Assembly: GCF_003515065.1 (NCBI RefSeq) | Contig: NZ_QXGH01000010.1 | Location: 310,001 to 374,000 of the forward strand | Length of the DNA stretch: 64,000 nt | DNA from: Nocardioides immobilis | Lineage (GTDB): Bacteria; Actinomycetota; Actinomycetes; Propionibacteriales; Nocardioidaceae | Direction of reading: 5' to 3' | Shown here: in pieces, positions 15,059-45,584 of the stretch | Position numbering within the stretch: position 1 is the first letter of the stretch | How the letters are laid out: every line of letters begins with the position of its first letter | Program-made: the position numbers and the translations under genes | Notes under the pieces: model-generated | The model's input: the letters and a program-made list of their open reading frames with translations, nothing else | Databases searched by the model: none | What the model was told of the DNA's origin: nothing

Positions 15059-15076
15059 CGACCGACTAGTCGGTCG
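15059..15076. promoter_or_regulatory. TetR-type operator copy E, perfect 18-bp palindrome
   Basis: CGACCGACTAGTCGGTCG is an exact palindrome, 45-62 bases before the start of the crotonase gene that heads the large dehydrogenase-complex operon. It is one of the two perfect copies in the window and defines the consensus. Confidence 0.8.
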
Positions 15077-15120
15077 GGCTAGAAGGAGGCGTGTGCGGTG
15101 GCGGATGGTCAAGGAGTCAG

Positions 15121-17493: not shown

Positions 17494-17900
17494 GCTTCGC
17501 TGACGTAGAGACCACACTGCCCGAACTCGAGATCTGCCCGACGGAGATTTCCCTCTTCCGATTCAGCTCGGTGACCTGGAACCCGCACCGTATCCACTAC
17601 GACAAGCCGTACGCCGCGACCGAGGGGTACCCAGGAGTGCTTGTCCAGGGCCACCTCCACGGGTGCTGGTTGATCTCCGCTGTCAACCGATGGTTAGGCG
17701 AGAAAGGCCGGATCGAGAGCTTCTCTTGGGAGAACCGGCACTTCGCGACCACCGGCGACACACTGACCGTGACCGGGCGGGTGGCCGCCGCGGACGGTGA
17801 CCTCCGGACGCTCGAACTGAAGACAAGCAACCAGGACGGCGTGGTGTGTGCTCCGGGGCGTGCCGTCGTCCGTCTGACCCGCGAGGAGGAAGTCGCATGA
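17490..17900 (+). CDS. MaoC-like hotdog hydratase, catalytic half (hydratase subunit 2)
   Basis: This 136-residue hotdog-fold protein has the hydratase-2-like active-site signature FSSVTWNPHRIHYDKPYA followed by EGYPGVLVQGHL. The NxHxIHYD variant is typical of HTD2/mesaconyl-C4-CoA hydratase relatives rather than the D-x-N-P-x-H form of MaoC proper. ATG 17490 overlaps the stop of the preceding half-domain gene. Together they equal one double-hotdog hydratase split over two genes. The reaction is inferred to be hydration of an enoyl-CoA. Confidence 0.8.
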   Translation: MSFADVETTLPELEICPTEISLFRFSSVTWNPHRIHYDKPYAATEGYPGVLVQGHLHGCWLISAVNRWLGEKGRIESFSWENRHFATTGDTLTVTGRVAAADGDLRTLELKTSNQDGVVCAPGRAVVRLTREEEVA

Positions 17901-18892: not shown

Positions 18893-19875
18893 CCGCGCTC
18901 AAGTACTGGCAGGCGATCAACCGCGCGCTGCACGAGGAGATGGCACGCGACGACCGCGTGCTGCTGATCGGTGAGGACGTCGCAGAACCCGGTGGACCAT
19001 TCGGGGCGTCGAAGGGCCTGCTGGAGGCGTTCGGCGCGGAGCGGGTGCGAGACTCGCCCATCAGCGAGGCCGCGATCGTCGGGACCGCTCTCGGAGCGGC
19101 CATGGCCGGCTATCGGCCCATCGTCGAGGTCATGTTCCTCGACTTCGTCACCGTAGCCATGGACCAGGTCGTGAATCAGGCCGCGAAGGTGTCGTACATG
19201 TCTGCCGGCAACTTCGCCGCACCCATGGTTATCCGCTCGATCTGTGCGAGCGGACGCCGCACCGGACCGCAGCACTCGCAGAACCTCGAGGCGTGGCTGG
19301 CTCATGTCCCCGGACTCAAGGTCGTGTGGGGCTCGACCCCCGCGGACGCGCGCGGCCTGCTGAAGGCCGCGATCCGCGACGACGGGCCGGTCTATGTGAT
19401 CGAAAGCCTCGCCGAGTGGTCGACCCGGGGGGAGGTGCCAGATGACGACGAGATCGTGCCGATCGGATCTGCCGCAGTGAGACGCGAGGGTGACGACCTG
19501 ACGCTCGTCACGTGGGGCGGCGCAGCGCCGCGCGCGGCCACGGCAGTAGAGCAGATGGAAGACGTGGGAGTCGAGCTCATCGACCTGCGGACGATCTCCC
19601 CTTGGGACCGTGACACGGTGCTCGAGTCGGTCCGCAAGACGGGCCGCCTGCTTGTGGTGCACGACGCAGTTGTCGAGTTCGGTGTCGGTGCCGAGATAGC
19701 CGCGACCGTCGCGGCAGAGTGCTTCGACGAACTCCGCGCGCCGGTGCGGCGCCTCGGCGCGCCGTACGCGCCGGCGCCCTTCGCGCCCCAGCTCGAGGCC
19801 GCCTACCTGCCGCAACCGGAGGACATCGCCTCCGCTGTGCTCGAGACCGTCAAGACCGTGAGGAAGGCATCATGA
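18889..19875 (+). CDS. Thiamine-dependent 2-oxo acid/acetoin dehydrogenase E1 component, beta subunit
   Basis: This 328-residue E1 beta subunit has the transketolase pyrimidine-domain segment LIGEDVAEPGGPFGASKGL, SPISEAAIVGTALGAAMAGY and the C-terminal LIDLRTISPWDRDTV motif. The AcoB/PdhB-typical GRRTGPQHSQNLEAWLAHVPGL region would use Gln-His-Ser in the active-site tunnel. It overlaps E1 alpha by ATGA and the lipoyl-domain gene by four bases. Confidence 0.9.
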   Translation: MTALKYWQAINRALHEEMARDDRVLLIGEDVAEPGGPFGASKGLLEAFGAERVRDSPISEAAIVGTALGAAMAGYRPIVEVMFLDFVTVAMDQVVNQAAKVSYMSAGNFAAPMVIRSICASGRRTGPQHSQNLEAWLAHVPGLKVVWGSTPADARGLLKAAIRDDGPVYVIESLAEWSTRGEVPDDDEIVPIGSAAVRREGDDLTLVTWGGAAPRAATAVEQMEDVGVELIDLRTISPWDRDTVLESVRKTGRLLVVHDAVVEFGVGAEIAATVAAECFDELRAPVRRLGAPYAPAPFAPQLEAAYLPQPEDIASAVLETVKTVRKAS

Positions 19876-20108
19876 GCGACATCGTGGTCCCGCAGTGGGG
19901 ACTGACCATGGAGGAAGCCACGCTCGTCGCGTGGTTGAAGGAGGTCGGCGACCACGTCGACGAAGGCGAGCCCATCGCCGAACTGGAGACCGACAAGACC
20001 ACTGCGGAGCTGGAGTCGCCTTTCGCGGGAACCGTCACAGAGCTCCTCGTTGAGGAGAACATCGACGTCGTGCCAGGTCAGGTCGTCGCGAGGCTGGCCG
20101 ATGACTGA
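19872..20108 (+). CDS. Free-standing lipoyl domain protein (E2 N-terminal part)
   Basis: This 78-residue protein consists of a single biotinyl/lipoyl domain. The lipoylation site is Lys42 within ELETDKTTAELESP. The conserved Gly-rich turns (GDHVDEGEPI, FAGTVTELLVEE) are present. It ends immediately after the domain; there is no peripheral-subunit-binding domain. The next gene, overlapping by 8 bases in another frame, encodes the acyltransferase catalytic domain, so the usual two- or three-domain E2 is encoded here as two separate polypeptides. Lipoyl synthase in the same operon would supply the cofactor. Confidence 0.9.
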   Translation: MSDIVVPQWGLTMEEATLVAWLKEVGDHVDEGEPIAELETDKTTAELESPFAGTVTELLVEENIDVVPGQVVARLADD

Positions 20109-20841
20109 GGCAGTGCGTGAGCTGGTCTACGACCGATTCCGCCGCACCACCGCGCGACGCATGACCGAGTCGGTGATCACCAAGCCCCAGGTCACCTTGC
20201 ACCGGCGCGCGGATGTCACGCGACTCGAGTCCAGTCTCGCCGGGGCGAAGGCACGCCATCATGACGCCGACCTGGGGTTCTCTGCGGCGTTGCTCGCCGC
20301 GATCGCGCGCGGCCTCCGCTCGAGCCGCGTCAACGGGACGGTGGCCGACCGAACAATCAGACTTCACCAGTCTGTGAACCTCGGGGTCGCTGTCGACGTC
20401 GCTGGTGCCCTCCTGGTGCCCGTTGTCCACGCGGCAGACCACCTGTCGGTGGCAGGTCTCGCAGCACGCACCCGCGAGCTCGCCGAGGTAGCACGCAGCG
20501 GCAGCCTGCGCCCGGAGCACGTGGAGGGGGCGACATTCACGGTCTCAAGCCTCGGGCCGTTGGGCATCGAACTGTTCTCGCCCATCGTCAACCCGCCGCA
20601 ACTCGCGATCCTCGGTGTCGGAGCGGTGCGGAAAGAGTTCGTCGTCGTTGACGGTCAGGTTGCCGAGACCCGCAACATCGGGCTCAGCCTGAGCTTCGAC
20701 CACGCCGCAACCGACGGCGCTGACGCGGCCCGCGCCCTCGGGGAGATCTGCCGGTCCGTGGAGCAACCCGACGGCCTCTTGTGGGTCGACGAAGCGTTGG
20801 ACGGCTCGCCCGGAGGACCGGTCGATCGCGCGCACGCTTAG
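20101..20841 (+). CDS. 2-oxo acid dehydrogenase acyltransferase, catalytic domain only (E2 C-terminal part)
   Basis: This 246-residue protein corresponds to the E2 catalytic domain. The active-site motif is SFDHAATDG (His201, Asp205) and the substrate channel segment is TFTVSSLGPLGIELFSPIVN. Neither a lipoyl domain nor a subunit-binding domain is present in this chain. ATG 20101 overlaps the end of the lipoyl-domain gene. It transfers the acyl group from lipoamide to CoA. How the free lipoyl protein, E1 and E3 are held together without a binding domain is unclear. Confidence 0.88.
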   Translation: MTEAVRELVYDRFRRTTARRMTESVITKPQVTLHRRADVTRLESSLAGAKARHHDADLGFSAALLAAIARGLRSSRVNGTVADRTIRLHQSVNLGVAVDVAGALLVPVVHAADHLSVAGLAARTRELAEVARSGSLRPEHVEGATFTVSSLGPLGIELFSPIVNPPQLAILGVGAVRKEFVVVDGQVAETRNIGLSLSFDHAATDGADAARALGEICRSVEQPDGLLWVDEALDGSPGGPVDRAHA

Positions 20842-20862
20842 CTGAAGTCTTGGAGGATTGAC

Positions 20863-22419
20863 ATGGACATCGTCGGGAACCGCACGCTGCGCGACCTTCT
20901 GGACGAACGGGTGGCCCGTTACGGCGACAAGCCGTTCCTCGTGTTCGAGGACAAGGACGGCAACGTCAGCGAGGCTACGTACTCTGCTTTCCAGACGCGC
21001 GTCGACCGGGTGGCCGCAGGACTGACCGACTTGGGGGTGGGGCCAGGCGACAAGGTGGCAGTACACCTCGCGAACTGCCCGGAGATCCTCGAGGTCTGGT
21101 TCGCGCTCGGCACGCTCGGTGCCGTGATGGTGCCGTCGAACACGGCCAACACGCCGGGCGAACTCGAGTACCTCCTCGACTTCTCCGGCGCCGTCGCGAT
21201 CGTCACCCAGCCGGCATTCCTGTCGACCGTGAGCACCGCCGTGGACGAGGTGCCAGCAGTCAGGCACCGCATCCTGGCCAGGACCGCCACCGCGGCACCC
21301 GGAACGCTGCTCCTAGAAGACCTGGTGTCCACCACGACTGTCGCTCCGCGGCCCAAAGTGAACAGCGAGGACGTCGTGCAGATGCTCTTCACCTCCGGGA
21401 CAACCGCGCGCCCGAAAGGCGTGCTGCTGACTCATGCCAATGCCCTACACGGGGGTGAGCGTGAGTCCCGCGGCCTGCTGCTCGACGACACCGACCGCTG
21501 TATGACCTCGTTGCCGCTGTTCCATGTCAACGCCCAGGTGATCACGATGTTGTCGAGCCTGACGGTGGGCGCCACATGCATTGTGCTGGAGGAGTTCCGC
21601 GCAACGAAGTACTGGGACCAGCTGCGTCGCCACCGCGCGACCCAGACGAGCCTGGTCGCCATGCAGGTGCGCACGCTTCTCGCGCAGCCCGAGAGAGAGA
21701 CCGACCGTAGCCACGCGCTTCGTCGCACGTTCTACGCCCTCAACATCTCGACCGAGGAGAAGGACGCGTTCCAAGACCGCTACGGCGTTGAGCTCATCAA
21801 CGCCTACGGACTCTCCGAGGCGATGACTCTGGCGACACTCGCACCGGTTTTCGGCCCCAAGAAGTGGCCATCGATCGGCAAGCCGCTAGTGGGCCGCACG
21901 ATCCGGCTGGTCGACCCCGACGGCAACGACGTGCCGGTAGGGACGGTTGGCGAGATCGTCATCCACGGCGTTCCTGGCCGCACCCTCATGAAGGGCTATT
22001 ACAGGAACCCCGAGGCCACTGCTGACGCGCTCCGCGACGGGGAACTCTGGACCGGCGATAACGCCTACGCCGACGATGACGGGTACTTCTACTGGTTCGA
22101 CCGGCGGTCGGACATGATCAAACGTGCCGGTGAGAACATCTCGACCGTCGAGGTCGAGTCTGTCATCGTCGAGCATCCCGAGGTCGCCGAGGTCGCCGTC
22201 ATCGGCGTACCCGACCCGCTGCGCGACGAAGCGGTCAAGGCAGTCCTTGTGCTCGAGCCGGGCAGCCGTCTGACAGCGGAAGACGTCCGGGAACACTGCG
22301 AAGGGCGGCTTGCCGCCTTCAAGATCCCGACAGTCATCGAAATCCGCGATGCGCTTCCCAAGACCTCGATCGGCAAGGTCGCGAAGGGTGAGCTCCGCAA
22401 GGAGGCGAGAACCGAATGA
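20863..22419 (+). CDS. AMP-forming acyl-CoA ligase
   Basis: This 518-residue ANL-family ligase activates a carboxylic acid to its CoA thioester using ATP. The phosphate loop is LFTSGTTARPKGVLLT (175-190). The A5 motif is INAYGLSEA, the A7/A8 hinge region GDNAYADDDGYFYWFDRRSD, and the C-terminal catalytic Lys is in the segment PKTSIGKVAKGELR. ATG 20863 follows TTGGAGGATTGAC. Located between E2 and lipoyl synthase, it probably activates the acid produced in this pathway. It may also supply the activity lost with the broken ligase at 44311-45454. Confidence 0.92.
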   Translation: MDIVGNRTLRDLLDERVARYGDKPFLVFEDKDGNVSEATYSAFQTRVDRVAAGLTDLGVGPGDKVAVHLANCPEILEVWFALGTLGAVMVPSNTANTPGELEYLLDFSGAVAIVTQPAFLSTVSTAVDEVPAVRHRILARTATAAPGTLLLEDLVSTTTVAPRPKVNSEDVVQMLFTSGTTARPKGVLLTHANALHGGERESRGLLLDDTDRCMTSLPLFHVNAQVITMLSSLTVGATCIVLEEFRATKYWDQLRRHRATQTSLVAMQVRTLLAQPERETDRSHALRRTFYALNISTEEKDAFQDRYGVELINAYGLSEAMTLATLAPVFGPKKWPSIGKPLVGRTIRLVDPDGNDVPVGTVGEIVIHGVPGRTLMKGYYRNPEATADALRDGELWTGDNAYADDDGYFYWFDRRSDMIKRAGENISTVEVESVIVEHPEVAEVAVIGVPDPLRDEAVKAVLVLEPGSRLTAEDVREHCEGRLAAFKIPTVIEIRDALPKTSIGKVAKGELRKEARTE

Positions 22420-22483
22420 GCCGTCGTGCCGATGCGCCGCCTTCGGCTCACCGCGGCCGAGCCGCCCAACGTGAGGACGCCAC

Positions 22484-23440
22484 GTGACGATCGCGCCCCA
22501 AGGACGCAGGTTGCTGCGCCTCGAGGCCCGCAATGCCGAAACCCCGCTCGAGAAGAAGCCCGAGTGGATCCGGAGCCGGGCGAAGGTTGGCCCTGAGTAC
22601 CTCGAGCTCACCGGCCTGGTGAGCAGCGAGGGCCTGCACACCGTGTGTCAGGAGGCGCGTTGCCCCAACATCTTCGAGTGCTGGGAGGACCGCGAGGCAA
22701 CCTTCCTCATCGGCGGGGGAAGGTGTACCCGGCGGTGTGACTTCTGCCAGATCGACACCGGCATGCCCGCCGCTCTGGACCGCGACGAGCCCCGCCGGGT
22801 CGCCGAGAGCGTGCGGAAGATGCAGCTGCGGTACTCCACCATCACCGGCGTCGCACGCGACGACCTGCCCGACGGCGGTGCCTGGCTATACGCCGAGACG
22901 GTCCGCCAGATCCACGCGCTCAACCCCGACACGGACGTGGAGAACCTCATCCCGGACTTCAACGGCAGCGACGCACTGCTGGCTCAGGTGTTCGAGTCGC
23001 GCCCCGAGGTGTTGGCGCACAACCTCGAAACGGTGCCGCGCATCTTCAAGCGGATCCGCCCGGCATTCCGCTACGACCGCTCCCTGGATGTCCTGACGCA
23101 GGCACGCGACTACGGCCTGATCACGAAGTCGAACCTGATCCTCGGCATGGGCGAGACCCGTGAGGAGGTCTCCGAAGCGCTGCGTGACCTGAATGCAGCA
23201 GGCTGCAACATCATCACGATCACCCAGTATCTACGCCCCTCCAACCGGCACCACCCCGTGGAACGGTGGGTCAAGCCGCAGGAGTTCGTCGAGCTCGCGG
23301 ACGAGGCCCTAACGGTCGGCTTCGCGGGCGTCATGTCCGGGCCGCTCGTCCGCTCGTCGTATCGAGCTGGCCGCCTCTACCAACAGGCTCTCAATGCGCG
23401 CGACACCGACCAGAAGGAGCGAGATGGCCTCCACGCATGA
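22484..23440 (+). CDS. lipA: Lipoyl synthase
   Basis: This 318-residue radical-SAM enzyme inserts two sulphurs into octanoyl groups on lipoyl domains. The auxiliary cluster Cys triad is C55-x4-C60-x5-C66 and the SAM cluster motif is C81-x3-C85-x2-C88 (CTRRCDFC). DDLPDGGA and the C-terminal RSSYRAG are also typical. It lies inside a catabolic operon rather than beside lipB, as in some acetoin (aco) clusters that carry a lipoyl synthase gene. It therefore seems dedicated to lipoylating the 78-residue domain at 19872. GTG 22484 follows GTGAGGACGCCAC. Confidence 0.94.
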
Positions 23441-24809
23441 CCTGGTGATTCTGGGCGGGGGATCCGGCGGATACGCCGCGGCCCTGCGCGCCAGCCAACT
23501 AGGGCTGACGGTGGCCCTGGTCGAGAAAGGCAAGCTGGGCGGCACGTGCCTCCACAGCGGATGCATCCCGACCAAGGCGCTCCTGCACGCCGCCGAGGTC
23601 GCCGACGCGGCCCGCAAGGCAGAGACCTTTGGCGTCCAGGCGTCCCTCGCGGGGATCGACATGAAGGCCGTCAACGCTTTCAAGTCAGGCGTCGTCGACC
23701 GCCTCTACAAAGGTCTGCACGGCCTGATCAAGTCGGCCGGCATCACCCTCGTCGAGGGCGAGGGCAAACTCGTCGCGACGCATGCCGATGGCGGAGGCAC
23801 CATCGAGGTGGATGATGAGCAGTACACGGGTCGCAACATCGTCCTGGCGACCGGCTCCTACGCGCGCACGCCGCGAGACCTGGATTGCGGCGACCGCGTC
23901 CTCACCTCCGACGAGGTGCTGGAGATGACCGACGTCCCCAGCAGCGTCGTCATCATCGGCGGCTCTGTCATCGGCGTCGAGTTCGCCAGCGTCTGGAACT
24001 CGTTCGGCACAGACGTCACGATCATCGAAGCTCTCCCCACGCTCGTGCCACTCGAAGACCCGGCGCTGAGCAAACAGCTCGAGCGAGCGTTCCGAAAGCG
24101 CAAGATCGCATTCAAGCCCCGCACTAAGGTCACCGGCGTCGAGCAGACCGACTCCAGGGTGACAGTCTGGCTCGAGGGCGGCGACACGATCGAGGCTGAC
24201 CTCGTGCTCGTCGCCGTGGGCCGCAGCCCGCGCAGCGAGGGCCTCGGCTTCGAGGAGGCCGGCATCGCAACCGACCGTGGCTGGGTTCTTACGAACGAGC
24301 GCCTCGCGACGAACGTCCAAGGAGTCTTCGCCGTCGGCGACCTCGTTCCAGGCTTGCAGCTCGCCCACCGAGGGTTCGCGCACGGCATCTTCGTGGCCGA
24401 GGAGATCGCGGGCATGAACCCCCGACCAGTCCTTGACACCGGTATCCCGCGCGTGACGTACTGCGAGCCCGAGCTGGCCAGCGTCGGTGTGACCGAGCCG
24501 CAGGCCAGCGAGAAGTACGGCGACAACAACGTTGAAGTCGTCGAGTACAGCTTGGGCGGCAACGGCAAGAGCCAGATTCTTCAAACCGCGGGCACCGTCA
24601 AGATGGTTCGGGAGAAGGACGGTCCCATCGTCGGCGTACACATGATCGGCAGTCGCCTCGGTGAGCAGGTCGGCGAAGCCGCCCTCATCGTCCACCGCGC
24701 GATGCTGCCGGACGACGTGTCGTTCATCCACGCGCACCCCACGCAGAACGAGTCCCTCGGCGAGGCCGCGCTCGTATTGGCCGGCAAGCCCCTCCACTCC
24801 CACCTTTGA
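23424..24809 (+). CDS. Dihydrolipoyl dehydrogenase (E3)
   Basis: This 461-residue FAD/NAD disulphide oxidoreductase reoxidises dihydrolipoamide. FAD motif [13 protein letters not shown] (11-23), redox disulphide Cys42/Cys47 in [18 protein letters not shown] motif [13 protein letters not shown] and the C-terminal catalytic His in HAHPTQNE are all present. ATG 23424 overlaps the end of lipA by 17 bases and follows AAGGAGCGAG. It completes the E1-E2-E3 set of this operon. A housekeeping E3 would be expected elsewhere. Confidence 0.94.
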
Positions 24810-25072
24810 TGCCCGGGCAGATGAGCGACGAGCGCGGCTACGTCCCTGCACCTGCCACCCGCGGACGGGCGAGACGCCGAGCGGCACGGGAAGGCCAGGC
24901 GTCGTGGGATCGAGCGCGGGCGCACGGGCACGGCCTCTCACATCGACATGCGAACGGTGGCGCCCCCGGGTCTTGACACGCCATCGCTCAAGGTGGCCGA
25001 ACAGGCCGGATTCAGTAGCCCGGCAAAGGCGTGCAGCTCGACCAGATGCGCCCCACATTCGAGAGGAACATC
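24810..25072. other. Intergenic region before the thiolase gene
   Basis: No hairpin, operator copy or gene was found. GAGAGGA before ATG 25073 is the ribosome binding site of the thiolase gene. The thiolase may be co-transcribed with the preceding operon or have an unrecognised promoter. Confidence 0.4.
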
Positions 25073-26257
25073 ATGACGACTGATGACAGAATTGTGATTC
25101 TGGACGGCGCGCGGACCCCGATCGGGAGCTTCGGGGGCGCCCTGTCAGGTGTGCCGGCGCACGAGCTCGGGGCCGCGGCGACGGTCGCTGCGCTGCAACG
25201 TGCCGACGTCGACGCAGCGGAGCCGTCGGAGGTCGTCATGGGCTGCATCGGCCAGGTCGGCCCCGACGCGTACAACGCACGGAGAGTGGCGCTCGCGGCA
25301 GGGATGCCCGAGCACGTGCCGGCGTTCACCGTGAACCGCCTGTGCGGCAGCGGCCTGCAGGCGGTCTGGTCGGCCGCTCAACAGATGCGATGGAACGGCC
25401 TCGATCTGGCCGTCGCCGGCGGCGACGAGTCGATGTCGCGGATGCCGTTCTACGACTTCGAGGCGCGGGCCGGGCGGCGTCTAGGCGATCGGACCTTGGT
25501 CGACGGGACCGTTTCGATGCTGACCGACCCGTTCGGCGGAACTCACATGGGGGTCACAGCCGAGAACGTGGCCGCGAAATACGCAGTGTCGCGCGAGGAG
25601 CAAGACGCTTTCGCGGTGGAGTCGCAGCGGCGCGCCGCCACGGATGCTGCCCGGTCCGCGTTCGCGGATGAGATCGTGCCCGTGGAACTGGGTGGCCGAC
25701 GTCCAGCGACGGTCTCGGTCGACGAGCACCCGAAGCCGGACACGACGATCGAGGTCCTGGCAGGCCTACGACCCGCGTTCCAGGCGGGCGGCTCGGTCAC
25801 GGCGGGCAACGCATCGGGGATCAACGACGGGGCCGCCGCGCTGGTGCTGGCCCGCGAATCCGTCGCCCGCGACAGGGGTCGTTCCGGGCTCGTCGCGCTC
25901 GAGCACGTCGCCACCGCTGCGATGGGGCCCGGGCTGATGGGTTACGCACCGGTTCTCGCGCTCAACTCGCTTTTCGACCGGACCGGTCTGCGGCCCTCGG
26001 ACATCGACATCATCGAGCTCAACGAAGCCTTCGCATCTCAGGCAGTCGCGGTACGGCGGGATGCGAAGCTTCCTGAGGAGCGGACGAACCCGTACGGCGG
26101 GGCAATCGCTCTGGGGCACCCCGTCGGCGCCACCGGCGCGATCCTGACCCTTCGCGTGGTCCAGCACCTGCGGCGCGGCGGCGGAGAGCTCGGCATCGTG
26201 ACGATGTGCATCGGCGGAGGCCAAGCCCTGGCCGCGCTCTTCCGTCGACTGGACTGA
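25073..26257 (+). CDS. Acetyl-CoA acetyltransferase (thiolase)
   Basis: This 394-residue biosynthetic/degradative thiolase cleaves 3-oxoacyl-CoA with CoA. The nucleophilic Cys91 is in VNRLCGSGLQ, followed by the NEAFA motif, the catalytic His in GGAIALGHPVGATGA and the second Cys in MCIGGGQ. ATG 25073 follows GAGAGGAACATC. It provides the last step of a beta-oxidation-like route formed with the acyl-CoA dehydrogenase and hydratases upstream. It converges on the Lrp-type regulator gene. Confidence 0.94.
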   Translation: MTTDDRIVILDGARTPIGSFGGALSGVPAHELGAAATVAALQRADVDAAEPSEVVMGCIGQVGPDAYNARRVALAAGMPEHVPAFTVNRLCGSGLQAVWSAAQQMRWNGLDLAVAGGDESMSRMPFYDFEARAGRRLGDRTLVDGTVSMLTDPFGGTHMGVTAENVAAKYAVSREEQDAFAVESQRRAATDAARSAFADEIVPVELGGRRPATVSVDEHPKPDTTIEVLAGLRPAFQAGGSVTAGNASGINDGAAALVLARESVARDRGRSGLVALEHVATAAMGPGLMGYAPVLALNSLFDRTGLRPSDIDIIELNEAFASQAVAVRRDAKLPEERTNPYGGAIALGHPVGATGAILTLRVVQHLRRGGGELGIVTMCIGGGQALAALFRRLD

Positions 26258-32683: not shown

Positions 32684-33071
32684 GTCAGCCTCTCTCCACG
32701 GAAGTGGGCGATTCACGCCCGACCCGGCGACCGTAAGAAGTGAGCCGCGTCACCCGATATCCCTTCTGCGCCGGTCCCAAGCCGTTTCGCGACGACCGCA
32801 CTCGACACCGGACGCCCGTGAGCACCGGTTCTGGTTCCAACCACAACCATCCGCGCGCCTGCCGAGACCGCCGCGTCGACACCGTGCTGACGCCTTGCCT
32901 TGGTGGCCGGCGCCTGCGGAACACAGACACCGGGCATCTGGCCCACCGTGCCTCGGTCTGGCTCGCGAAAACTGGGCCATGGAACCAGTGGGCGAGAAGT
33001 GCGCTGGGCTGACGGTCCACACTCGAGCCGAAATGCACGCGCACCACTGACAGTTCGAAGGGCACCCTTTG
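32684..33071. other. Divergent promoter region of the LLM monooxygenase and the large oxidoreductase
   Basis: Several arginine-rich frames cross this stretch in all directions but none resembles a known family. No copy of the recurring operator was found here. Confidence 0.45.
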
Positions 33072-37519: not shown

Positions 37520-38221
37520 TCAGCTGAATGCAACCCCACCGTTGACGTCCAACACCACCCCGGTGGCATAGCTGGCGTCGGCCCCCAGCAGGAACAGAAT
37601 GGGTCGCGCGATCTCCTCGGGCGAGGCGAACCGTCCGATCGGGAACATGTCAGTCTTGTAGCCGCGACCGGCGATCATTGGCGTGTCGATGGGCCCAGGC
37701 GCGACGCCGTTGACGCGCACGCCGTGCTGCATCTCGTTCTTCGCGATGGAGCGGACCATGGCGAGCAGGGCGCCCTTGCTCGCTGAATAGTGCGCGCCGG
37801 CAAGCACACCCCCGATGCGACCCGCGAGCGAGGCGACGCAAACGACGCTGCCGTGTGACTCGCGCAGGTGGGGCATAGCGGCCTGGACGCACCACAGCGT
37901 GCCCGCCACGTTGACGCCAAGCACGTGGTCGACGTCATCGGGACGGAGGTCGTCCAGGGCGATGTCGCGGCCATAGACGGCTGCGGACGTGATCAGCCCG
38001 GTCAACCCACCCGACGCAGCGAAAGACCCGAAGAGCGCATGCGCCTCGTCCCGGTCGCGCACGTCGCACTGGGCGTACTCATACCCAGGACGGGCGTCGC
38101 CTCCCTCGCCGTGAATGTCGACGCCGAGCACCTGGGCTCCTCGGTCGAGCAGCAGCGAAACTGTGGCCGCGCCAACGCCACTCGCGGCGCCGGTCACGAT
38201 GACTCGCTCCGGGTTGGTCAT
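37520..38221 (-). CDS. Short-chain dehydrogenase/reductase
   Basis: This 233-residue classical SDR has the NAD(P) motif TGAASGVG (10-17), catalytic YSASK, the Ser region VCVASLAG and the C-terminal PGPIDTPM. The usual NNAG stretch is replaced by ITSAA. ATG 38221 follows GAAGGAGAACC. It lies downstream of hyuB with a 73-base gap that contains a 12-bp hairpin. It may form the ketone substrate of the HyuAB-type carboxylase from an alcohol. A 14-bp palindrome CATTCAGCTGAATG overlaps its stop codon. Confidence 0.9.
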   Translation of the reverse strand: MTNPERVIVTGAASGVGAATVSLLLDRGAQVLGVDIHGEGGDARPGYEYAQCDVRDRDEAHALFGSFAASGGLTGLITSAAVYGRDIALDDLRPDDVDHVLGVNVAGTLWCVQAAMPHLRESHGSVVCVASLAGRIGGVLAGAHYSASKGALLAMVRSIAKNEMQHGVRVNGVAPGPIDTPMIAGRGYKTDMFPIGRFASPEEIARPILFLLGADASYATGVVLDVNGGVAFS

Positions 38222-38294: not shown

Positions 38295-40244
38295 TCAGGC
38301 GAGCCTGGAGCGGAGATCCGCGGTTGCCTGCTCGTCCACCGAGATGCCTTCTGGGTCAAGGTCCGGATCGCCGAGAACGACGACACCGTAGCTCCGGGCA
38401 GCACCTTCGACACTGACGTAGCCGTTCCGCACGTCCCGGAGGACGCGCTCCGACTCGCGCGAGGTCGCCGCGCCCCATCCACCGGCGCCCGCAGTTCGGT
38501 AGCGCCAGACCGCGCCGGGTCGCGTGCGCCAGACCTGCTCTTTTCCGTAGTGGAAGAAGGTGCCGTCCTCCGCGGCCAGGTCGAGCGTCTCGGGGTCGAG
38601 GGTCCCGGCCACCGGGGTCGAGACCGCGTACACGGTCGAGTCGGTGGGGAGTTGCCCTCCGTTTGAGAGCACCTGGTCCTCGACAGCGTCGAACAGCCAG
38701 ACACCCGTTCGGGTGCCGTTGCTTCCGCCGTTGATGCCGAAGCCCACCGAGTCCTTGACCCGCAACGGGCTCGTCCAGTGTTCGCTCGCGCGGCGCCAGA
38801 GAGTGTCCTTGACGACGGCCGCGCCGCCTCGGTTGAATCCAGCGCCGGCGCTGTCAACTGCGTACTCCTTGCGGAGGACGAGGACGGGGAGATCGGCCTC
38901 GATGGCCTCAGTCGCCGGGTCTAGGTTGTTGGCGAGGTAGATGACCTGGTAGCTGTCCCCGTCGCCGTACTGGGTTCCGGACCACGGGCCGTGCTCGCCG
39001 CCGCATTGACCGGTGGTCACCCACGGCACTCCGTCCTCGGTGACCCCGTTGCCGTTGTGCAGGCTGAGCGAACCGTAGTCGCCGCCGATCGCCCGGTCGC
39101 CGAGCGCCTCCTGGAGGGCGTCGAAGATCGCGGCGACGATGACACACGAGCTCTCCCAGAACATGAAGATGGCACCGTCCGGGGGAGTGGCACTCACGAT
39201 GGTGCCTGCAGGCAAGACGACGTCGATCGGGCGGTAGGTCCCGCTGGTGAAGGGCGTCTCGCGGTCGATCAGCATCTTGAGCGCGATGCCAACCGCGGTC
39301 TTCGAATCCAACACGCTGCCGTTGATCGACGTCCGTGCCTGGGGTGAGGAGCCGCTCAGGTCGACCTCGATGCGGTCACCGACCTTGGTGATGTCCACCC
39401 GGATCAGGTACTCGATGTCAGAGTCGATGCTGTCAGAGTCGATGCATCCCGAGCTCGAGTACTTCCCATCAGGAACGGTGCTCAGGGCCGTGCACATGGC
39501 CTCAGCCGAGACGTCGCATGTGTAGCGCACGGACCCGAGGAAGGCGTCCACGCCGTACCTCTCGACCGACTCGGTGATGAGACGCTCGGCGAGGTCCAGG
39601 TTCTGGCGGATGGTGGTAATGTCGGGCATCACAAGCGCTCCGAAGCGCGCGTTGTCGAGGAACAGATTGAAGGTCGACCGGACAGGCTTGCCGCCGGCGT
39701 ACAACAGTTGCGGGGACACGACGAGCCCCGTCTCGTACACATCGCGCTTGGTCGAGCTAAAGCCCGCGGGGACGATGCCGCCCATGTCCATCTGGTGAGC
39801 GCGCAGCGACACGAAGGACACGATCCTTCCGTCGTGGAACACGGGGCGGACGAACAGGACGTCGTTGACGTGCGTGCCCGTGCGGTAGGGGTCGTTGCAG
39901 ATCAGCACGTCCCCCAGGTTCAGGTTCTCGGGACCGTACTCGATGACGGCGTTGCGCACGCCGTCGCACATCGTCCCGAAGAAGGCGGCGAGGCTGTTAC
40001 TGACCGAGCACATCGGGTAGTCGAGCTCGGGGGGACCGTGGACGGTCGCGGCGAAGTCGTACCAGTCGCGCAGGATCGCCGAGAATGTGTTGTTGAGCAA
40101 CTGCCCACACATGTGGTCGACGACGTACCGCAAGCGTCCGGATACGACGGTCGCCGTGAACCTGTCCGCCTGGTACAGCTCCTCGAACTGGGCTTCGCTG
40201 AGGTCGCGTAGCCGAGTCTCGGATGTGGTGATGGTCGTGGTCAT
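38295..40244 (-). CDS. Hydantoinase B/oxoprolinase/acetone-carboxylase-alpha-like protein (HyuB family)
   Basis: This 649-residue HyuB-family protein is longer than typical hydantoinase B (~550-600) and nearer to carboxylase subunits. Visible motifs are DMGGIVPAGFSSTKRDVYET, the metal-site region CNDPYRTGTHVNDVLFVRPV and GQCGGEHGPWSGTQYGDGDS. In acetone and acetophenone carboxylases this subunit acts with a HyuA-like ATPase subunit to carboxylate an enol phosphate. ATG 40244 lies 3 bases after the hyuA-like stop (same strand). The 75-residue zinc ribbon in the same operon favours a carboxylase over a hydantoinase, but this is inference. Confidence 0.87.
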   Translation of the reverse strand: MTTTITTSETRLRDLSEAQFEELYQADRFTATVVSGRLRYVVDHMCGQLLNNTFSAILRDWYDFAATVHGPPELDYPMCSVSNSLAAFFGTMCDGVRNAVIEYGPENLNLGDVLICNDPYRTGTHVNDVLFVRPVFHDGRIVSFVSLRAHQMDMGGIVPAGFSSTKRDVYETGLVVSPQLLYAGGKPVRSTFNLFLDNARFGALVMPDITTIRQNLDLAERLITESVERYGVDAFLGSVRYTCDVSAEAMCTALSTVPDGKYSSSGCIDSDSIDSDIEYLIRVDITKVGDRIEVDLSGSSPQARTSINGSVLDSKTAVGIALKMLIDRETPFTSGTYRPIDVVLPAGTIVSATPPDGAIFMFWESSCVIVAAIFDALQEALGDRAIGGDYGSLSLHNGNGVTEDGVPWVTTGQCGGEHGPWSGTQYGDGDSYQVIYLANNLDPATEAIEADLPVLVLRKEYAVDSAGAGFNRGGAAVVKDTLWRRASEHWTSPLRVKDSVGFGINGGSNGTRTGVWLFDAVEDQVLSNGGQLPTDSTVYAVSTPVAGTLDPETLDLAAEDGTFFHYGKEQVWRTRPGAVWRYRTAGAGGWGAATSRESERVLRDVRNGYVSVEGAARSYGVVVLGDPDLDPEGISVDEQATADLRSRLA

Positions 40245-40247: not shown

Positions 40248-42293
40248 TCAGGCCTTCCTGATCCGGATCTCGCCGAGGCGGCCGAGTCGCCCGACCTGGC
40301 CGCGCGGGATGAAGGTGGTTGAGGTGTCCTCACGGATGACCGCCGGACCGGCAATCTCGTCGTCGACGCTCAGGTCAGTGCGTCGGTATGCCGTTGCTGT
40401 CACGTCTTCGCCGTAGAGGTAGCGCAGCGTGATGTCCTCGCCCTCGAGGACGGCGCCGGCCGCCCGCTGCGGCGCATCCTGATAAGTGACCTTGGGGGTC
40501 TCGAGCCGCGCAGAGACGCGGAACGAGACGCCCTGGACCGGCATCATCTCGAACGCGCTGCCGGAGCGTGACGCGTACACAGTGTGGAAGTTGGCAATCA
40601 TCGCGGCGATGGACTCCTTGTCGAGCTTCCCGCTCGGCACCTCGACCAACGGTGTCTCCCATGTCTGTCCGACCAAGCGGCCGTCGTACGTCCTTGAGAA
40701 CGTCACGCCCTCCGCGTCGTCGGGAAGCTGCTTGCGCAGTTCGCTCTCCATCCGTTCGTAGAGGCCGTTGATGTGGTCGACGGCGTTTCCGTCGAGCAGG
40801 GTGTAGGAGCTCGCCACGGCGGAGTAGACCAGGTCGGTGCTGGTCAGGCCGACGGCCGAGAACAGGCCCGGGTTCGGGGGCACGACGACCTCCTTGGCGT
40901 TGACGAGGTCGAGAGCCGCGGGCAGGAGCATCGGCCCGGCGGCGCCGAAGGCCATCAGGGAGAAGTCGCGAGGGTCGAGTCCGTGCTTGACGGCGATATT
41001 GGTGACGCCCTCAGCGATGTTGTTGACGCCGATGGCGAAGGCCTGGCCCACGCGGGCGTCGATGTCGAGACCGGACGTCAGGGAAGCGAAGGAGTCGAGC
41101 GCGAGATCAGAGTCGAGCCGCTTCCCGCTGGCGAAGCCGTCCGGGTCGAGGATGCCGATCAAGAGGCACGCGTCGGTCATGGTCGGCTGGGTGCCGCCCT
41201 GCCCGTAGCAGGCGGGACCGGGATCGGCGCCCGCACTGCCGGGGCCGACCTTCAGCTCTCCGAAGGCGTTGACGGTAACCAGGCTGCCGCCGCCGGCGCC
41301 GATGCTGGAGATCTCGTTTGAGAGCGCGTTGACGACCAGGTCGTGCTCGAGCTCGAAGGTGGTGAGAACGAATGGGTCCCCGTCCACCACGACGCTGATG
41401 TCGCTAGACGTGCCGCCGACGTCGCAGCAAAGGAGGTTCGTTGCATCGATGAGCTTTCCGTAGTGAGAGCTGGCCATGGTGCCGGCAGCCGGGCCGGCGA
41501 AGACGATGCGGAAGGGCTTATGCATCGCGACCTCGACCGGGAGCAGCTCGGCGGCGCAGTCGGCGAAGTTGAGCTGGCCCGTGAAGTTCTGAGCTCGTAG
41601 GCCGGCGTTGAGCCGGCGCGCGTACTCGGTATAGATGAGCTTCATGAGGACGTCGATGACTGTCGTCGACGCTCGCGCGAACTCCTTTGCTAGTGGCGAC
41701 ACCTCGCTCGAGACCGACACCGGAACATCTCCCAGGATCTCGTGCGCCAGCTCGCGCAGGAGCTCCTCGTGCACGGGGTTGATGTAGGCATTCAGCAGGC
41801 AGATGGCCACCCCTTCGACGTTGCACCTCGCGAGCAACTCGAGCTGCGCACGAGCGTCCGCCTCGTCGAGCGCGGTCATCACCAACCCGTCGGCCGTGAC
41901 GCGCTCCCGGACGCCGCGACGCAGGTAGCGTTCAATGATGGGACGGTCGGCGTCCCCGAAGGACCGGCGCCACGTGGGGTCCGTCAAACCCTCCTGCGGT
42001 CGCCAGGTACGCCCGATGTCGAGGATGTCCCGATGCCCGTTAGTGGTCAGAAACCCGATCTTTGGGAGATTGCGCGTCAGCACAGCATTGAGTCCGTGGG
42101 TGCTCGCGTGATTGAAGTGCGTGATGTCGCTGACGCCCAGCTCGCGGGCGCCGTCGAGGACCGCTGACTCGGTGTTGCCGTAGATGGTTGGGACCTTGGC
42201 GACATGGATCTGGCCGTCGCGCACAGCGACGACGTCGGTGAAGGTACCACCCACATCGACGCCGACGATGGCGGCGGAGCTGTCGACGCTCAT
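40248..42293 (-). CDS. Hydantoinase A/acetone-carboxylase-beta-like ATPase (HyuA family)
   Basis: This 681-residue ASKHA-fold ATPase has phosphate-1 motif VGVDVGGTFTDVVAV (DVGGTFTD at 12-19) and a second motif LLCCDVGGTSSDISVV. The GGGSLVTVNAFGELKVGPGS and GADPGPACYGQGG segments are family hallmarks. It phosphorylates a carbonyl-derived enolate, or a hydantoin/oxoproline amide, for the HyuB subunit. ATG 42293 overlaps the zinc-ribbon gene's end by four bases; an in-frame extension upstream overlaps that gene and is rejected. It belongs to the operon driven from operator F. Confidence 0.89.
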   Translation of the reverse strand: MSVDSSAAIVGVDVGGTFTDVVAVRDGQIHVAKVPTIYGNTESAVLDGARELGVSDITHFNHASTHGLNAVLTRNLPKIGFLTTNGHRDILDIGRTWRPQEGLTDPTWRRSFGDADRPIIERYLRRGVRERVTADGLVMTALDEADARAQLELLARCNVEGVAICLLNAYINPVHEELLRELAHEILGDVPVSVSSEVSPLAKEFARASTTVIDVLMKLIYTEYARRLNAGLRAQNFTGQLNFADCAAELLPVEVAMHKPFRIVFAGPAAGTMASSHYGKLIDATNLLCCDVGGTSSDISVVVDGDPFVLTTFELEHDLVVNALSNEISSIGAGGGSLVTVNAFGELKVGPGSAGADPGPACYGQGGTQPTMTDACLLIGILDPDGFASGKRLDSDLALDSFASLTSGLDIDARVGQAFAIGVNNIAEGVTNIAVKHGLDPRDFSLMAFGAAGPMLLPAALDLVNAKEVVVPPNPGLFSAVGLTSTDLVYSAVASSYTLLDGNAVDHINGLYERMESELRKQLPDDAEGVTFSRTYDGRLVGQTWETPLVEVPSGKLDKESIAAMIANFHTVYASRSGSAFEMMPVQGVSFRVSARLETPKVTYQDAPQRAAGAVLEGEDITLRYLYGEDVTATAYRRTDLSVDDEIAGPAVIREDTSTTFIPRGQVGRLGRLGEIRIRKA

Positions 42294-42517
42294 GCGATTG
42301 CAATCCCCTCGCTGGTCAGGGAGACAGGACCCAGCAGCGACCACCGCGTCCGCTCGACGGAGTGCAGGCACGTTTGGCACTTCACGACCTTGAACCAGCC
42401 TCCCTCGCTGAGGACGGGGTAGGCCGTCAGCGAAGCCTCACCACATCGGTCGCAAGTGCCTTCGACGGGCGTTCGTTCGACCACCGGACCGGTGGTGGCA
42501 TGCAGGTGAGTCGTCAT
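42290..42517 (-). CDS. Small zinc-ribbon protein, possible third carboxylase subunit
   Basis: This 75-residue protein has two CxxC knuckles, Cys22/Cys25 (TCDRCGE) and Cys47/Cys50 (KCQTC), spaced like a rubredoxin-type zinc ribbon. ATG 42517 has an excellent ribosome binding site (AAGGAGCTTGCG). It is the first gene of the operon, overlaps hyuA by ATGA, and lies 32 bases after operator F. Acetone carboxylases have a small zinc-containing gamma subunit beside HyuAB-like chains; this short protein may play that role. No enzyme activity can be inferred from it alone. Confidence 0.8.
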   Translation of the reverse strand: MTTHLHATTGPVVERTPVEGTCDRCGEASLTAYPVLSEGGWFKVVKCQTCLHSVERTRWSLLGPVSLTSEGIAIA

Positions 42518-42540: not shown

Positions 42541-42558
42541 CGACCGACGGGTCGGTCG
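42541..42558. promoter_or_regulatory. TetR-type operator copy F (carboxylase-like operon)
   Basis: The 18 bases CGACCGACGGGTCGGTCG pair at 8 of 9 positions, with only the central GG unpaired. It lies 24-41 bases upstream of the minus-strand zinc-ribbon start, at the promoter of the hyu operon. Confidence 0.78.
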
Positions 42559-42651: not shown

Positions 42652-42669
42652 CGACCGACTAGTCGGTCG
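42652..42669. promoter_or_regulatory. TetR-type operator copy G (SDR/crotonase operon), perfect palindrome
   Basis: CGACCGACTAGTCGGTCG, identical to copy E, lies 111 bases from copy F. The divergent region therefore carries one site for each direction. Its distance to GTG 42778 is about 117 bases; it is closer (51 bases) to an alternative ATG at 42712. Confidence 0.8.
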
Positions 42670-42777: not shown

Positions 42778-43554
42778 GTGAAGGATCACGTCGCGATAGT
42801 GACCGGAGCCGCAGGCGGTATTGGCCGGGCGATCGTGCGTCGACTGGCTGCAACGGGGGTTCGAGTTGTGCTGGTCGACAGGGACGCCGGTGGGACTGCA
42901 ACTCTGGCCGCTGAGGTCGGGGATCAAGCCTTTCCAGTGCCGGTCGACCTGACCCACGACGGCGCCGTCGACACCATCGTGGACTCGACGATCGAACACT
43001 GGGGTCGGGTGGACGTGCTGGTCAACAACGCCGGAACGTCCGCGCATGGCCCACTGGTGGACGTGCCCCGAGAAGTACTCGAGCGCGAGATCGCCGTGCA
43101 TGTCACCATCCCATTTCTCCTGATCCAGCGTGTCGCACGTCCGATGATCACGGCTGGCTACGGACGCATCATCAACATCAGTTCCGTGGCGAGCCTGATC
43201 GGTCCGTTGGACCTGTCGCCGTACGGCGTCGCCAAGACTGGCCTCAATGGCGTGACCAGGGCTGCAGCCACCGAGCTCGCGCAACATGGGATCACCGTCA
43301 ACGCGCTCGCCCTCGGACCCATCGCCACGGACCTCCTGCGGTCCACCTGGCCACCCGACCAGTTGGCGGCCCGCGCAGAGCATCTGCCGGCACGACGGTT
43401 GGGGGAGGTAGACGAGGTCGCCCACGCCGTCCAGTTCTTGTGCAGCCCGCTCTCGGGCTTCATCAACGGCGCGGTCCTCCCCGTTGACGGCGGTTCGGTA
43501 GCTGCTGGCGCGTACATGGTGGAGCAGTACCGTCGCTGGAACGCGCACTCATGA
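42778..43554 (+). CDS. Short-chain dehydrogenase/reductase
   Basis: This 258-residue classical SDR has the cofactor motif TGAAGGIG (9-16), VLVNNAGTSAH, the Ser-containing IINISSVAS and YGVAK as the catalytic Tyr/Lys. The C-terminal GFINGAVLPVDGG is typical of the 3-oxoacyl-reductase-like group. GTG 42778 (VKDHVAIVTG) gives the standard N-terminus and follows GGGAG at a longish 11 bases. ATG 42712 would add 22 residues and has the operator at a more usual distance. It overlaps the crotonase gene by ATGA. Confidence 0.88.
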   Translation: MKDHVAIVTGAAGGIGRAIVRRLAATGVRVVLVDRDAGGTATLAAEVGDQAFPVPVDLTHDGAVDTIVDSTIEHWGRVDVLVNNAGTSAHGPLVDVPREVLEREIAVHVTIPFLLIQRVARPMITAGYGRIINISSVASLIGPLDLSPYGVAKTGLNGVTRAAATELAQHGITVNALALGPIATDLLRSTWPPDQLAARAEHLPARRLGEVDEVAHAVQFLCSPLSGFINGAVLPVDGGSVAAGAYMVEQYRRWNAHS

Positions 43555-44318
43555 GACTGGTCACTGTCGAGTACCGAGCTCGGGTGCTCCATGTGCGGAT
43601 GTCGTCGCCACCGGTCAACGCCTTCAGTGCGGCCTTCTTCGATGACCTGCACGCTGTACTTGCCAGTGCTGGACCGGAGATCGGCGCCGTCGTCATTAGC
43701 AGCACGGTGGAGCGGGTCTTTGCTGCCGGCGGTGACATTCCATTCATGGCGAGAGCTGATGAGCCGACCTCCGAGAACTACGTTCGTCGTTGCCAAGAGG
43801 TCTACGGGCTGCTGGAACGGCCTGAGGTGGTGTCGATCATGGCCATCGATGGCGCCTGCCTCGGTGGCGGGCTGGAGCTGTCGCTGGCCGCCGACATTCG
43901 CATCGCCTCGCCCAGCAGCCGACTGGGGCTACCGGAAGTCTCGCTCGGAATCCTCGCAGGGGGAGGCGCGATCCATCGTCTCGTCCGCGCCGTCGGGCAG
44001 GGTGTGGCACGCGACCTCCTGCTGACCGGAGAGCCGATCAGCGCGAAGCAGGCGCATATGTGGGGTTTGGTCAACCGCCTCGCTGCCGATCCTCTCGCCG
44101 CCGCGCTCGCCCTGGCAGAGAAGGTCGGGTCGTTCTCTCCTGAAGCGGTTGGAGCCACCAAGGTGCTGGCACTCTCGGCCTCTACTGACGAGTTCGAGGA
44201 CGGACTGCGCGACGAGCTGGCGAGGTGGGTCGAGGTGCGACGCGGCGCTAATGCGCAGGAGGGTTTGGACGCGTTCGCGCAGAGGCGGGCCCCACGGTTC
44301 GAGCGCCGCCATGCATGA
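43551..44318 (+). CDS. Enoyl-CoA hydratase/isomerase (crotonase) family protein
   Basis: This 255-residue crotonase has oxyanion motif RVFAAGGDIPFMAR and IDGACLGGGLELSLAADIRI, followed by LGLPEVSLGILAGGGAIHRL. The Glu of the PEVSLG stretch is at the position of the first catalytic Glu of classical hydratases. It is translationally coupled to the SDR before it and to the broken ligase after it (stop/ATG overlap region). Confidence 0.9.
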   Translation: MRLVTVEYRARVLHVRMSSPPVNAFSAAFFDDLHAVLASAGPEIGAVVISSTVERVFAAGGDIPFMARADEPTSENYVRRCQEVYGLLERPEVVSIMAIDGACLGGGLELSLAADIRIASPSSRLGLPEVSLGILAGGGAIHRLVRAVGQGVARDLLLTGEPISAKQAHMWGLVNRLAADPLAAALALAEKVGSFSPEAVGATKVLALSASTDEFEDGLRDELARWVEVRRGANAQEGLDAFAQRRAPRFERRHA

Positions 44319-45454
44319 CGGATGGGCGAAGCGGCCCACCGAAGTTCTGCATGGCCGTCTCTGGGGCCGCGGGGTAGTCGATCCCGATCGCCCGGTATTG
44401 ACCGTCATCGGAGATCGCACGTTCACTGCGGCCGAGCTCTGGAAGAGCGTCGATGAACGAGTCGCCGAGCTCGAGGGAGCCGGGTTGCGGCGCGGAGACA
44501 GGCTATGCCTTTTCCAGGACAACAGCGCTGACATGATCCTGGATTTGCTCGCCGCCTTCAGGCTCGGCGTGGTGGCGTCTCCGCTGAACACCGCTCTCCG
44601 CGGTGCCTCCCTCTCCTCGGTCGTGGCTGAGCTAACTCCCTGCGTCGTTCGCCCGGGCCGGGACCACACTGATGCGGCGCGCAGGGCAGTCGCAGGCATC
44701 GAGGGCGTGGCGTTCTGGCCAGTCGGCGAAAGCGTGTCGTCTTGGCTCGCGCCGGCTCGGGACGGGGCGTCAAGGCACGGCATGCACGAGAGCGACCTCG
44801 CCGTCATCCTCTTGACGTCCGGGACGACCGGGCATCCCAAGGGTGTGATGTGGGCCGCACGGTATGGCCCTCGGCGTGGCCGAGCACACCACCTGGGTCA
44901 TGGGTTACGACGACCGGGACACGATCTACACGTGTCTTCCTATGTTCCACATCAACGGGCTCTTCTGTGCCCTGTATGCGGGGCTCATCGTCGGCGCGCA
45001 CGTCGTTGTGGCGCCACGCTTCGGCCTCAGCTCCTTCTGGGACGACATCATCGATCACGAGGTGACGGCTGGTACACATATCGGGGCCGTGACAACGAGA
45101 TGTTGCGGGTGTCGGGGGAGAATGTCGCCCCGACCCAGGTCGAAGCCGTGCTTCTGCGCCACGTAGGAGTGGCCGAGGCTTGCGTGTACGGATTGCAGAG
45201 CGACCTGGGCGAAGACGTCGTGGTGGCGGCCGTCGTCCCGGTGATCGACGTGGACTTCGATCTCGCTGAGCTGCGGGCTGGCCGAGTCGGAGCTCCCCTA
45301 TTTCGCCGTGCCGCGCTATCTCTGGGTGGTCGACTCGCTCCCCAAGACCGAGACCTCAAAGGTTCGCAAGTCGCTACTTGTCGAGCAGGGGCTGACCGAG
45401 GAGCACTGGGACGGCGGTCGCCTGCGGCGGTCCGATGTACGCAGGGTGCCGTGA
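44311..45454 (+). pseudogene. AMP-forming acyl-CoA ligase, disrupted by frameshifts and an internal deletion
   Basis: ATG 44311 opens MHDGWAKRPTEVLHGR and the frame is ligase-like to LTSGTTGHPKGVMWAA (the A3 phosphate loop). Then a different frame carries VMGYDDRDTIYTCLPMFHIN, and after about 45065 the first frame resumes with GDGWYTYRGRDNEMLRVSGE. A final frame gives PYFAVPRYLWVVDSLPKTET and the stop at 45452-45454. About 150-200 codons between HEVTAG and GDGWYTY are missing compared with intact ligases. The protein cannot be functional; the ligase at 20863 may substitute. Confidence 0.85.
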
Positions 45455-45584
45455 GGACACCTCCAGTGGCGATGAGCGCATCGCATGTGTGACGAGCCGT
45501 GCGAACCTGGCTTGTGAGTTAGCCGCAACTCAGGAGCAGGGCAAACATCGGCGAGCCGCGCCGCCAATCGCTGGTGCAACTGCT

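Follow-up and report, generated by a model that had tools for sequence, protein, structure and literature searches.

A Conserved HyuAB Gene Trio With a Small VdcD-Like Zinc-Ribbon Protein in Nocardioides immobilis and Its Possible Function

Introduction

Enzymes of the HyuAB superfamily divide their reaction between two large subunits, HyuA, which spends adenosine triphosphate (ATP) on a phosphorylated intermediate, and HyuB, which completes the reaction at a metal. In acetone carboxylase (Acx) these are accompanied by a small zinc subunit, gamma, whose role is described as not clear and which is said to have homology to Yippee-like domains in the excerpted text of PMC5543143. A small protein from another system, VdcD, binds the UbiD-type protein VdcC tightly and is needed for its activity (excerpt of PMC8379154). 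Here we analyze a gene trio of Nocardioides immobilis, in which a short gene for a four-cysteine protein precedes hyuA and hyuB; it lies in a 64,000-nucleotide stretch, hereafter the window (assembly GCF_003515065.1, contig NZ_QXGH01000010.1, positions 310,001-374,000, forward strand). The trio is a genuine variant of the HyuAB superfamily, with three genes that are conserved together; among the papers listed in searches of an open-access collection, none deals with a HyuAB-plus-VdcD-like trio. An earlier note on this DNA had proposed that it encodes a new ketone carboxylase by analogy with acetone carboxylase; it picked the right gene for a reason that was partly wrong, and its proposal is partly supported by what follows.

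Conservation of the Gene Trio

All three genes lie on the reverse strand of the window. The first (42290..42517) encodes a VdcD-like zinc-ribbon protein of 75 residues with Cys22, Cys25, Cys47 and Cys50, for which we propose a structural or activating role; AAAGGAG precedes its ATG, and its TGA overlaps the ATG of hyuA as ATGA at 42290-42293. The HyuA-type ATP-binding subunit (40248..42293, 681 residues) was assigned by Pfam (Hydant_A_N, E 8e-37; Hydantoinase_A, E 9e-62), and the HyuB-type subunit (38295..40244, 649 residues) likewise (Hydantoinase_B, E 3e-107); its metal-site residues are Asp63, His125, Asp128 and His150.

HyuB was matched at E 1e-60 or better in 3 of 396 genomes sampled from the phylum, and a first profile of the small protein, built from the three small proteins of these same genomes, scored E 2e-35 or better exactly in the three HyuB-clade genomes that had supplied it, with eight further weak genome matches (E 0.0017-0.01, not checked singly) in this sample. 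The HyuB alignment, scanned against GTDB contigs, identified 21 related loci, from Amycolatopsis, Prauserella, Sciscionella, Pseudonocardia, Thermocatellispora, Solirubrobacterales, Acidimicrobiia, Thermogemmatispora (Chloroflexota) and Aneurinibacillus (Bacillota). Plasmids of Burkholderia arboris, two Rhodococcus opacus and one R. rhodochrous hold further relatives at 57-59% identity, the next plasmid matches being at 29%; the small protein also gave weak plasmid matches in Salinibaculum (E 0.6) and Shinella (E 0.4). In 20 of the 21 GTDB loci and in all four related plasmids, a homologous small gene directly precedes hyuA. The 21st locus (L018) is a contig that begins within hyuA, hence there are 24 testable relatives, and the order small-HyuA-HyuB is kept in every one of them, across Actinomycetota, Chloroflexota, Bacillota and a Burkholderia plasmid. 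Because a homologue is found just upstream of hyuA in related loci, the small gene is a genuine gene and no chance open reading frame (ORF). Coordinates and all 24 relatives thus bear out what the earlier note had seen, namely a 75-residue four-cysteine protein leading a small-HyuA-HyuB operon through an ATGA overlap. In the Thermocatellispora locus (L025, 5308-6998), the HyuA following the small gene is without its N-terminal part and is split between frames.

The claim that plain HyuAB loci have no such partner held as well, the small-protein profile finding nothing at E 0.1 or better in 24 of the 26 generic HyuAB control loci examined. Short same-strand ORFs with two CxxC pairs do occur within 1.5 kb in 4 of 24 control loci and have, by eye, the look of chance reading frames. 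Among its kin the locus is rare, since the small protein was found in one of 145 genomes searched, which is its own; the N. immobilis genome holds one match to the window HyuA at E 1e-5 or better.

Phylogenetic Position and Metal Site of HyuA and HyuB

In a HyuA tree of 78 rows, for which only the Shimodaira-Hasegawa-like approximate likelihood ratio test (SH-aLRT) was used, the clade forms one group with a support of 100 and a stem length of 1.29. It falls together with N-methylhydantoinase and caprolactamase on one side, and the opposite side contains the PF08882-linked rows of Acx and of acetophenone carboxylase (Apc), their PDB anchors and one hydantoinase-like long row. The HyuB tree (67 rows) supports the clade at 100/100 and separates the Acx/Apc side, again with one hydantoinase-like long row, at 100/99. 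The trees leave out L018, whose contig is too short, and L025, whose HyuA is incomplete and in split frames, and one L160 fragment was dropped. Both subunits are accordingly placed by their trees in a deep, long-stemmed clade of their own on the hydantoinase side, not within a characterized hydantoinase group. In proposing this phylogeny, the earlier note had counted a hydantoinase/oxoprolinase placement against its ketone carboxylase; that is the side obtained, yet with the trio in a separate long-stemmed clade. The NCBIfam equivalog cut-offs for the caprolactamase subunits CapA and CapB were missed (347.8 and 186.9 against 1000 bits), and those for acetophenone carboxylase were likewise far from reached.

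His125, Asp128 and His150 are present in 24 of 24 clade HyuBs, and Asp63, read by eye, in the window protein and 23 relatives. These metal ligands, known from Apc-beta (excerpt of PMC5214803) and CapB (excerpt of PMC8453981), are common to carboxylases and hydrolases. The clade further has Phe162 in 24 of 24 HyuBs, Gln (17/24) or Met (7/24) at residue 151 after the metal His, and a QCGGEHGPW loop that is found in all eight clade rows viewed and varies in members of the L006/L007 type. Tyr136 of CapB, proposed there as acid/base (PMC8453981), was rejected as a hydrolase marker: all 24 clade members have Phe in its place, yet the position also varies among 27 hydrolase-like rows and is Phe in six of them. 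The length of HyuB, which the earlier note had regarded as diagnostic, proved not to be so, and a role of its long C-terminal arm in wrapping a gamma subunit was ruled out, because CapB and N-methylhydantoinase have that arm.

The Small Zinc-Ribbon Protein

The cysteine pairs of the small protein are spaced CxxC-21-CxxC in 15 of 15 zinc forms. This is the spacing of ShVdcD, with Cys3, Cys6, Cys28 and Cys31 (excerpt of PMC8379154), and of 8 of 10 VdcDs (23 in the remaining two), against 46-52 in PF08882 domains (6 of 12 domains having two CxxC pairs). Profile comparison by hhalign gave a probability of 92.7-92.8% (P 4e-7) for the small protein and ten VdcDs, compared with controls of 31-33% for 20 FmdB proteins, 8-28% for six DUF6510 proteins and 6.4-8.5% for 12 Acx/Apc gamma domains. 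In an NCBIfam scan of 18 members, VdcD (NF041205) was the commonest match (7/18, best E 2e-4), other ribbons reaching E 8e-4 at best, and Foldseek listed the ShVdcD structures 7ae7 and 7ae5 at ranks 4 and 6 with probabilities of 0.51 and 0.47, the highest among the matches listed.

Several results weigh against kinship with VdcD. Other ribbon families reach up to 40% against one another in the same hhalign test, and the cysteine-less forms alone score 2.9% against VdcD, which is no match. The window protein itself matches no NCBIfam model; ShdD (7ae7) is the top PDB match of a phmmer search with the small protein of L012, but at E 0.11; a profile of 18 small proteins found only two xylanase chains in the PDB and no VdcD chain; and the Foldseek E-values of 1.3-1.4 exceed 1. 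As the shared stretch is a ribbon of only some 36 residues, a kind of fold that readily arises by convergence, a distant relationship with VdcD is probable and not proven.

Other candidates fared worse. DUF6510, the best Pfam match of the window protein (E 0.002, under the cut-off), was rejected as closest relative on its hhalign values. Homology to the Acx/Apc gamma subunit was rejected on the cysteine spacing, on hhalign and on the absence of a PF08882 match of the small protein in the Pfam scan; the own genome has no PF08882 match at E 1e-4 either. The acetone carboxylase analogy of the earlier note is therefore to be divided: the conserved small zinc-ribbon partner stands, whereas neither Acx/Apc membership in the two trees nor identity with the gamma subunit by sequence does. 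The top PDB phmmer matches of query P0001 were six-fold repeat artefacts (SAKe chains) and were discarded. VIA-align returned RNA-polymerase-type ribbons with Z up to 4.5 and no Acx/Apc gamma among the matches listed, which proves nothing, and a fold search with the cysteine-less model gave nothing at E <0.8 and no ribbon among the matches listed. Note also that at L062 (7020-9422, -) and L063 (7005-8933, -) a PF08882 gamma domain lies at the C-terminal end of HyuB within one open frame, pointing to HyuB-gamma fusions; the gamma domain of L063 has lost most of its cysteines.

Within the family, all four cysteines are present in 15 of 25 small proteins and none in the other 10, which comprise seven Amycolatopsis-type and three Rhodococcus members; as a correction to the earlier note, the cysteines are not what the core of the protein conserves. 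Cysteine-less forms carry a 12-residue insert at the place of the first knuckle, and the YPVxSEGGW...K stretch persists in them. Tyr33, Val35, Gly39, Gly40, Lys46, Leu51, Ser53, Arg56 and Gly63 are common to both forms (18 members aligned). When HyuA and HyuB are combined in one tree, the rows without cysteines group together (84/70) and the window is sister to them (89/87); this topology is compatible, with modest support, with a single loss of the zinc site. AlphaFold2 models the window protein as a ribbon with one short and three long strands (mean predicted local distance difference test score, pLDDT, 77; block means of 85-96 across residues 11-60), and a cysteine-less protein with three long strands, two short C-terminal strands and, where the insert lies, a pair of short helices (mean pLDDT 84). 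Because ten relatives without the four cysteines keep the protein, the zinc looks like a structural staple with no part in the chemistry; a site that an entire subclade lacks cannot be what marks that chemistry.

Gene Neighborhood and Putative Operators

A short-chain dehydrogenase/reductase (SDR) gene lies within 7 kb in 18 of 21 clade loci, an acyl-coenzyme A (CoA) ligase gene in 14 and both in 13; the corresponding counts are 5, 2 and 0 of 26 for generic HyuAB loci and 1, 4 and 1 of 11 for Acx/Apc loci. When the clade is merged to 14 lineages, the counts become 11, 7 and 6. The near-duplicates L013, L014, L027 and L028 and the short L018 were excluded from the 21-locus neighbor count, the SDR and ligase profiles were made from clade neighbors and may favor the clade, and for six of the 26 control loci (L097-L102) the flanking sequence is limited to about 2-4 kb. 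Recurring clade neighbors, in families named from representatives, are TetR regulators (10 loci), fused E1 dehydrogenases (7) and carboxymuconolactone-decarboxylase-like proteins (5); flavin-containing monooxygenase (FMO)-like proteins and crotonases also occur (25 of 52 neighbor families tallied). In Aneurinibacillus (L017) a beta-keto acid cleavage enzyme (BKACE; 11482-12339, +) is encoded beyond a divergent sigma-54 activator and, were a beta-keto acid formed, would be well suited to process it.

In the window, a gene for a 233-residue SDR dehydrogenase (37520..38221, -) stands immediately 3' of hyuB. The divergent operon encodes another SDR dehydrogenase (42778..43554, +), an enoyl-CoA hydratase (crotonase) family protein (43551..44318, +) and what is left of an acyl-CoA ligase (44314..45492, +), in pieces lying in two frames and much shorter than its relatives. 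A second ligase with both AMP-binding domains is encoded at 20863-22419. A 1156-residue indolepyruvate ferredoxin oxidoreductase family protein (33069-36539, +) lies beside the trio operon, and a Mutator-family transposase is found at 46764-47906.

Palindromic operator-like sites precede the small gene (ACCGACGGGTCGGT, 42543..42556) and lie between the divergent operons (ACCGACTAGTCGGT, 42654..42667), and the same site recurs at 15061..15074, just before the crotonase that heads a run of dehydrogenase-complex, ligase and thiolase genes. The putatively co-regulated genes of this run (15091..26257, +), listed from the part of the ORFs scanned, are ECH, ADH, E1 alpha, E1 beta, E2, acyl-CoA ligase, E3 and thiolase. 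In all, the ACCGACnnGTCGGT palindrome stands before or between several catabolic operons (6453, 15061, 42543 and 42654, with the core only at 51856), and the site at 6453 is upstream of an ATP-binding cassette (ABC) importer, MmgE/PrpD and an acyl-CoA dehydrogenase. CCGACYNGTCGG has nine matches at five places in the window against 0.27 expected, and ACCGACNNGTCGGT was counted at 13 positions genome-wide, compared with one for the reversed control, the first four positions above being the ones inside the window. The genes at these putative sites may form one regulon, and the gene picture of the window is that of a presumed breakdown of carbon skeletons via CoA esters.

Possible Function

We read the trio as one ATP- and metal-dependent enzyme with the ribbon as a non-catalytic subunit, and ketone carboxylation as its most likely reaction, a tentative reading to which we give a little less than an even chance. 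That the ribbon is a subunit of the HyuAB enzyme is, by similarity, quite probable; carboxylation and the substrate are proposed as most likely from the neighbors only. HyuA would activate the substrate, or bicarbonate, with ATP, HyuB would finish the reaction at the metal held by Asp63, His125, Asp128 and His150, and the tightly bound zinc ribbon would hold or activate the large subunits, as VdcD does for VdcC. The adjacent SDR would oxidize a secondary alcohol to a ketone, HyuAB would carboxylate the ketone to a beta-keto acid, and the acyl-CoA ligase would form the beta-ketoacyl-CoA, which thiolase would then cleave by thiolysis into central metabolism. This route is the most economical one because SDR, ligase and thiolase are nearby. 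The earlier note's idea that the ketone comes from the adjacent SDRs thereby gains in part: an SDR, an acyl-CoA ligase and a thiolase after the same operator-like site make ketone carboxylation a sensible guess.

Part of the evidence pulls the other way. HyuA and HyuB resemble hydrolases (N-methylhydantoinase, caprolactamase) more closely than they do ketone carboxylases, the ligase adjoining the window trio looks broken, L019 and L025 have neither SDR nor ligase, and SDR and ligase would equally fit a hydrolase whose acid product is activated. An ATP-dependent hydrolase could open a cyclic amide, imide, ester or strained cyclic ketone, the resulting acid being ligated and beta-oxidized and the ribbon being structural, and we regard it as a serious competitor, somewhat less probable than ketone carboxylation. 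Both trees put the clade with strong support on the hydantoinase/N-methylhydantoinase/caprolactamase side, the best PDB matches of HyuA and HyuB are hydrolases, and FMO-like flavin monooxygenases, some of which make lactones, are encoded near some loci. However, generic hydrolase-type HyuAB loci have neither the small protein (24 loci) nor the SDR and ligase pair; Tyr136 of CapB is replaced by Phe throughout the clade, though also in some hydrolase-like rows; and no aminotransferase is among the 39 window proteins scanned, the tally of neighbors covering 25 of 52 families. Since a hydrolase would use the same neighbors and agrees better with the trees, the two readings are kept close.

Considerably less probable is a (de)carboxylase of aromatic or phenolic acids, in which ATP would replace the flavin chemistry of VdcC next to the same type of small activator. 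The Pfam matches of the trio are to HyuA and HyuB, HyuAB and UbiD being different protein families, and the scanned neighbors are mostly CoA-ester and dehydrogenase genes. The idea has in its favor the resemblance to VdcD, whose known partners are hydroxyarylic acid decarboxylases (excerpt of PMC8379154), and a published discussion in which aromatic decarboxylation is guessed for another HyuAB (excerpt of PMC10470539). We think it just as unlikely that the small protein is a stand-alone zinc ribbon, a regulator or chaperone merely co-transcribed with the pair: RNA-polymerase and TFIIS-type ribbons do head the structural list, but the gene adjoins hyuA in 24 of 24 loci, overlapping or closely spaced with it, and the protein is kept after the zinc site is lost. 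A true acetone or acetophenone carboxylase with a divergent gamma subunit would have the same three kinds of part, and its small gene would come ahead of the alpha gene, an order known from apcB-apcC (excerpt of PMC5214803); both trees, the missing PF08882 match, the cysteine spacing and the hhalign values already disfavor it, and we consider it very improbable. The acetovanillone carboxylase of R. rhodochrous GD02 was considered because this strain holds the relative L066; the paper describes a biotin-type carboxylase (excerpt of PMC8461187), and the enzyme therefore says nothing on the HyuAB trio.

If the trio is a ketone carboxylase, its history could be that a VdcD-type ribbon was recruited by an unrelated, ketone-carboxylating HyuAB, and that one sublineage dropped the zinc and kept the subunit by means of a helical insert; we offer this as a possible but rather doubtful scenario. 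It would mean that the zinc "gamma subunit" arose separately here and in acetone/acetophenone carboxylase, and that the HyuAB superfamily gave rise twice to ketone carboxylation without biotin. Should the ribbon activate its partners as VdcD does, two unrelated (de)carboxylase families would have small ribbons in common as a control device. For the small zinc subunit, the family offers a natural experiment, since named and cultured strains have orthologous enzymes of which some possess the zinc site and others lack it.

Comparison With Known Systems

Similarly to AcxABC and ApcABCD(E), the trio combines HyuA-type and HyuB-type subunits with a small four-cysteine zinc subunit. Its HyuB has the Asp(Glu)/His/Asp/His metal site of both, its small gene sits before the alpha (HyuA) gene as in Apc, and acyl-CoA ligase genes lie near trio loci as they do near 4 of 11 Acx/Apc loci. 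Differently from these carboxylases, it falls in a separate, well supported clade, its small protein is unrelated in sequence and cysteine spacing, and no alpha-prime or epsilon gene was seen in it; the order small-HyuA-HyuB in the 24 testable relatives is neither alpha-beta-gamma, as in Acx, nor alpha'-gamma-alpha-beta, as in Apc. With CapAB, N-methylhydantoinase and the 5-oxoprolinase family it shares the nearest side of the trees, the best PDB matches and the HyuB C-terminal arm. However, those enzymes are two-subunit or fused proteins, without a small partner in the excerpted text of PMC5214803, whereas the trio has one, and it remains far under the CapA/CapB family cut-offs. The small protein is like VdcD, BsdD and ShdD in its length of about 75 residues, its CxxC-21-CxxC pairs, its three-stranded ribbon, its gene beside a catalytic subunit and a profile probability of 93%. 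It is unlike VdcD in having HyuAB as its partner with no UbiD-type VdcC next door, in a C-terminal tail that is by eye not proline-rich, in the core motif YPVxSEGGW and in having ten cysteine-less relatives.

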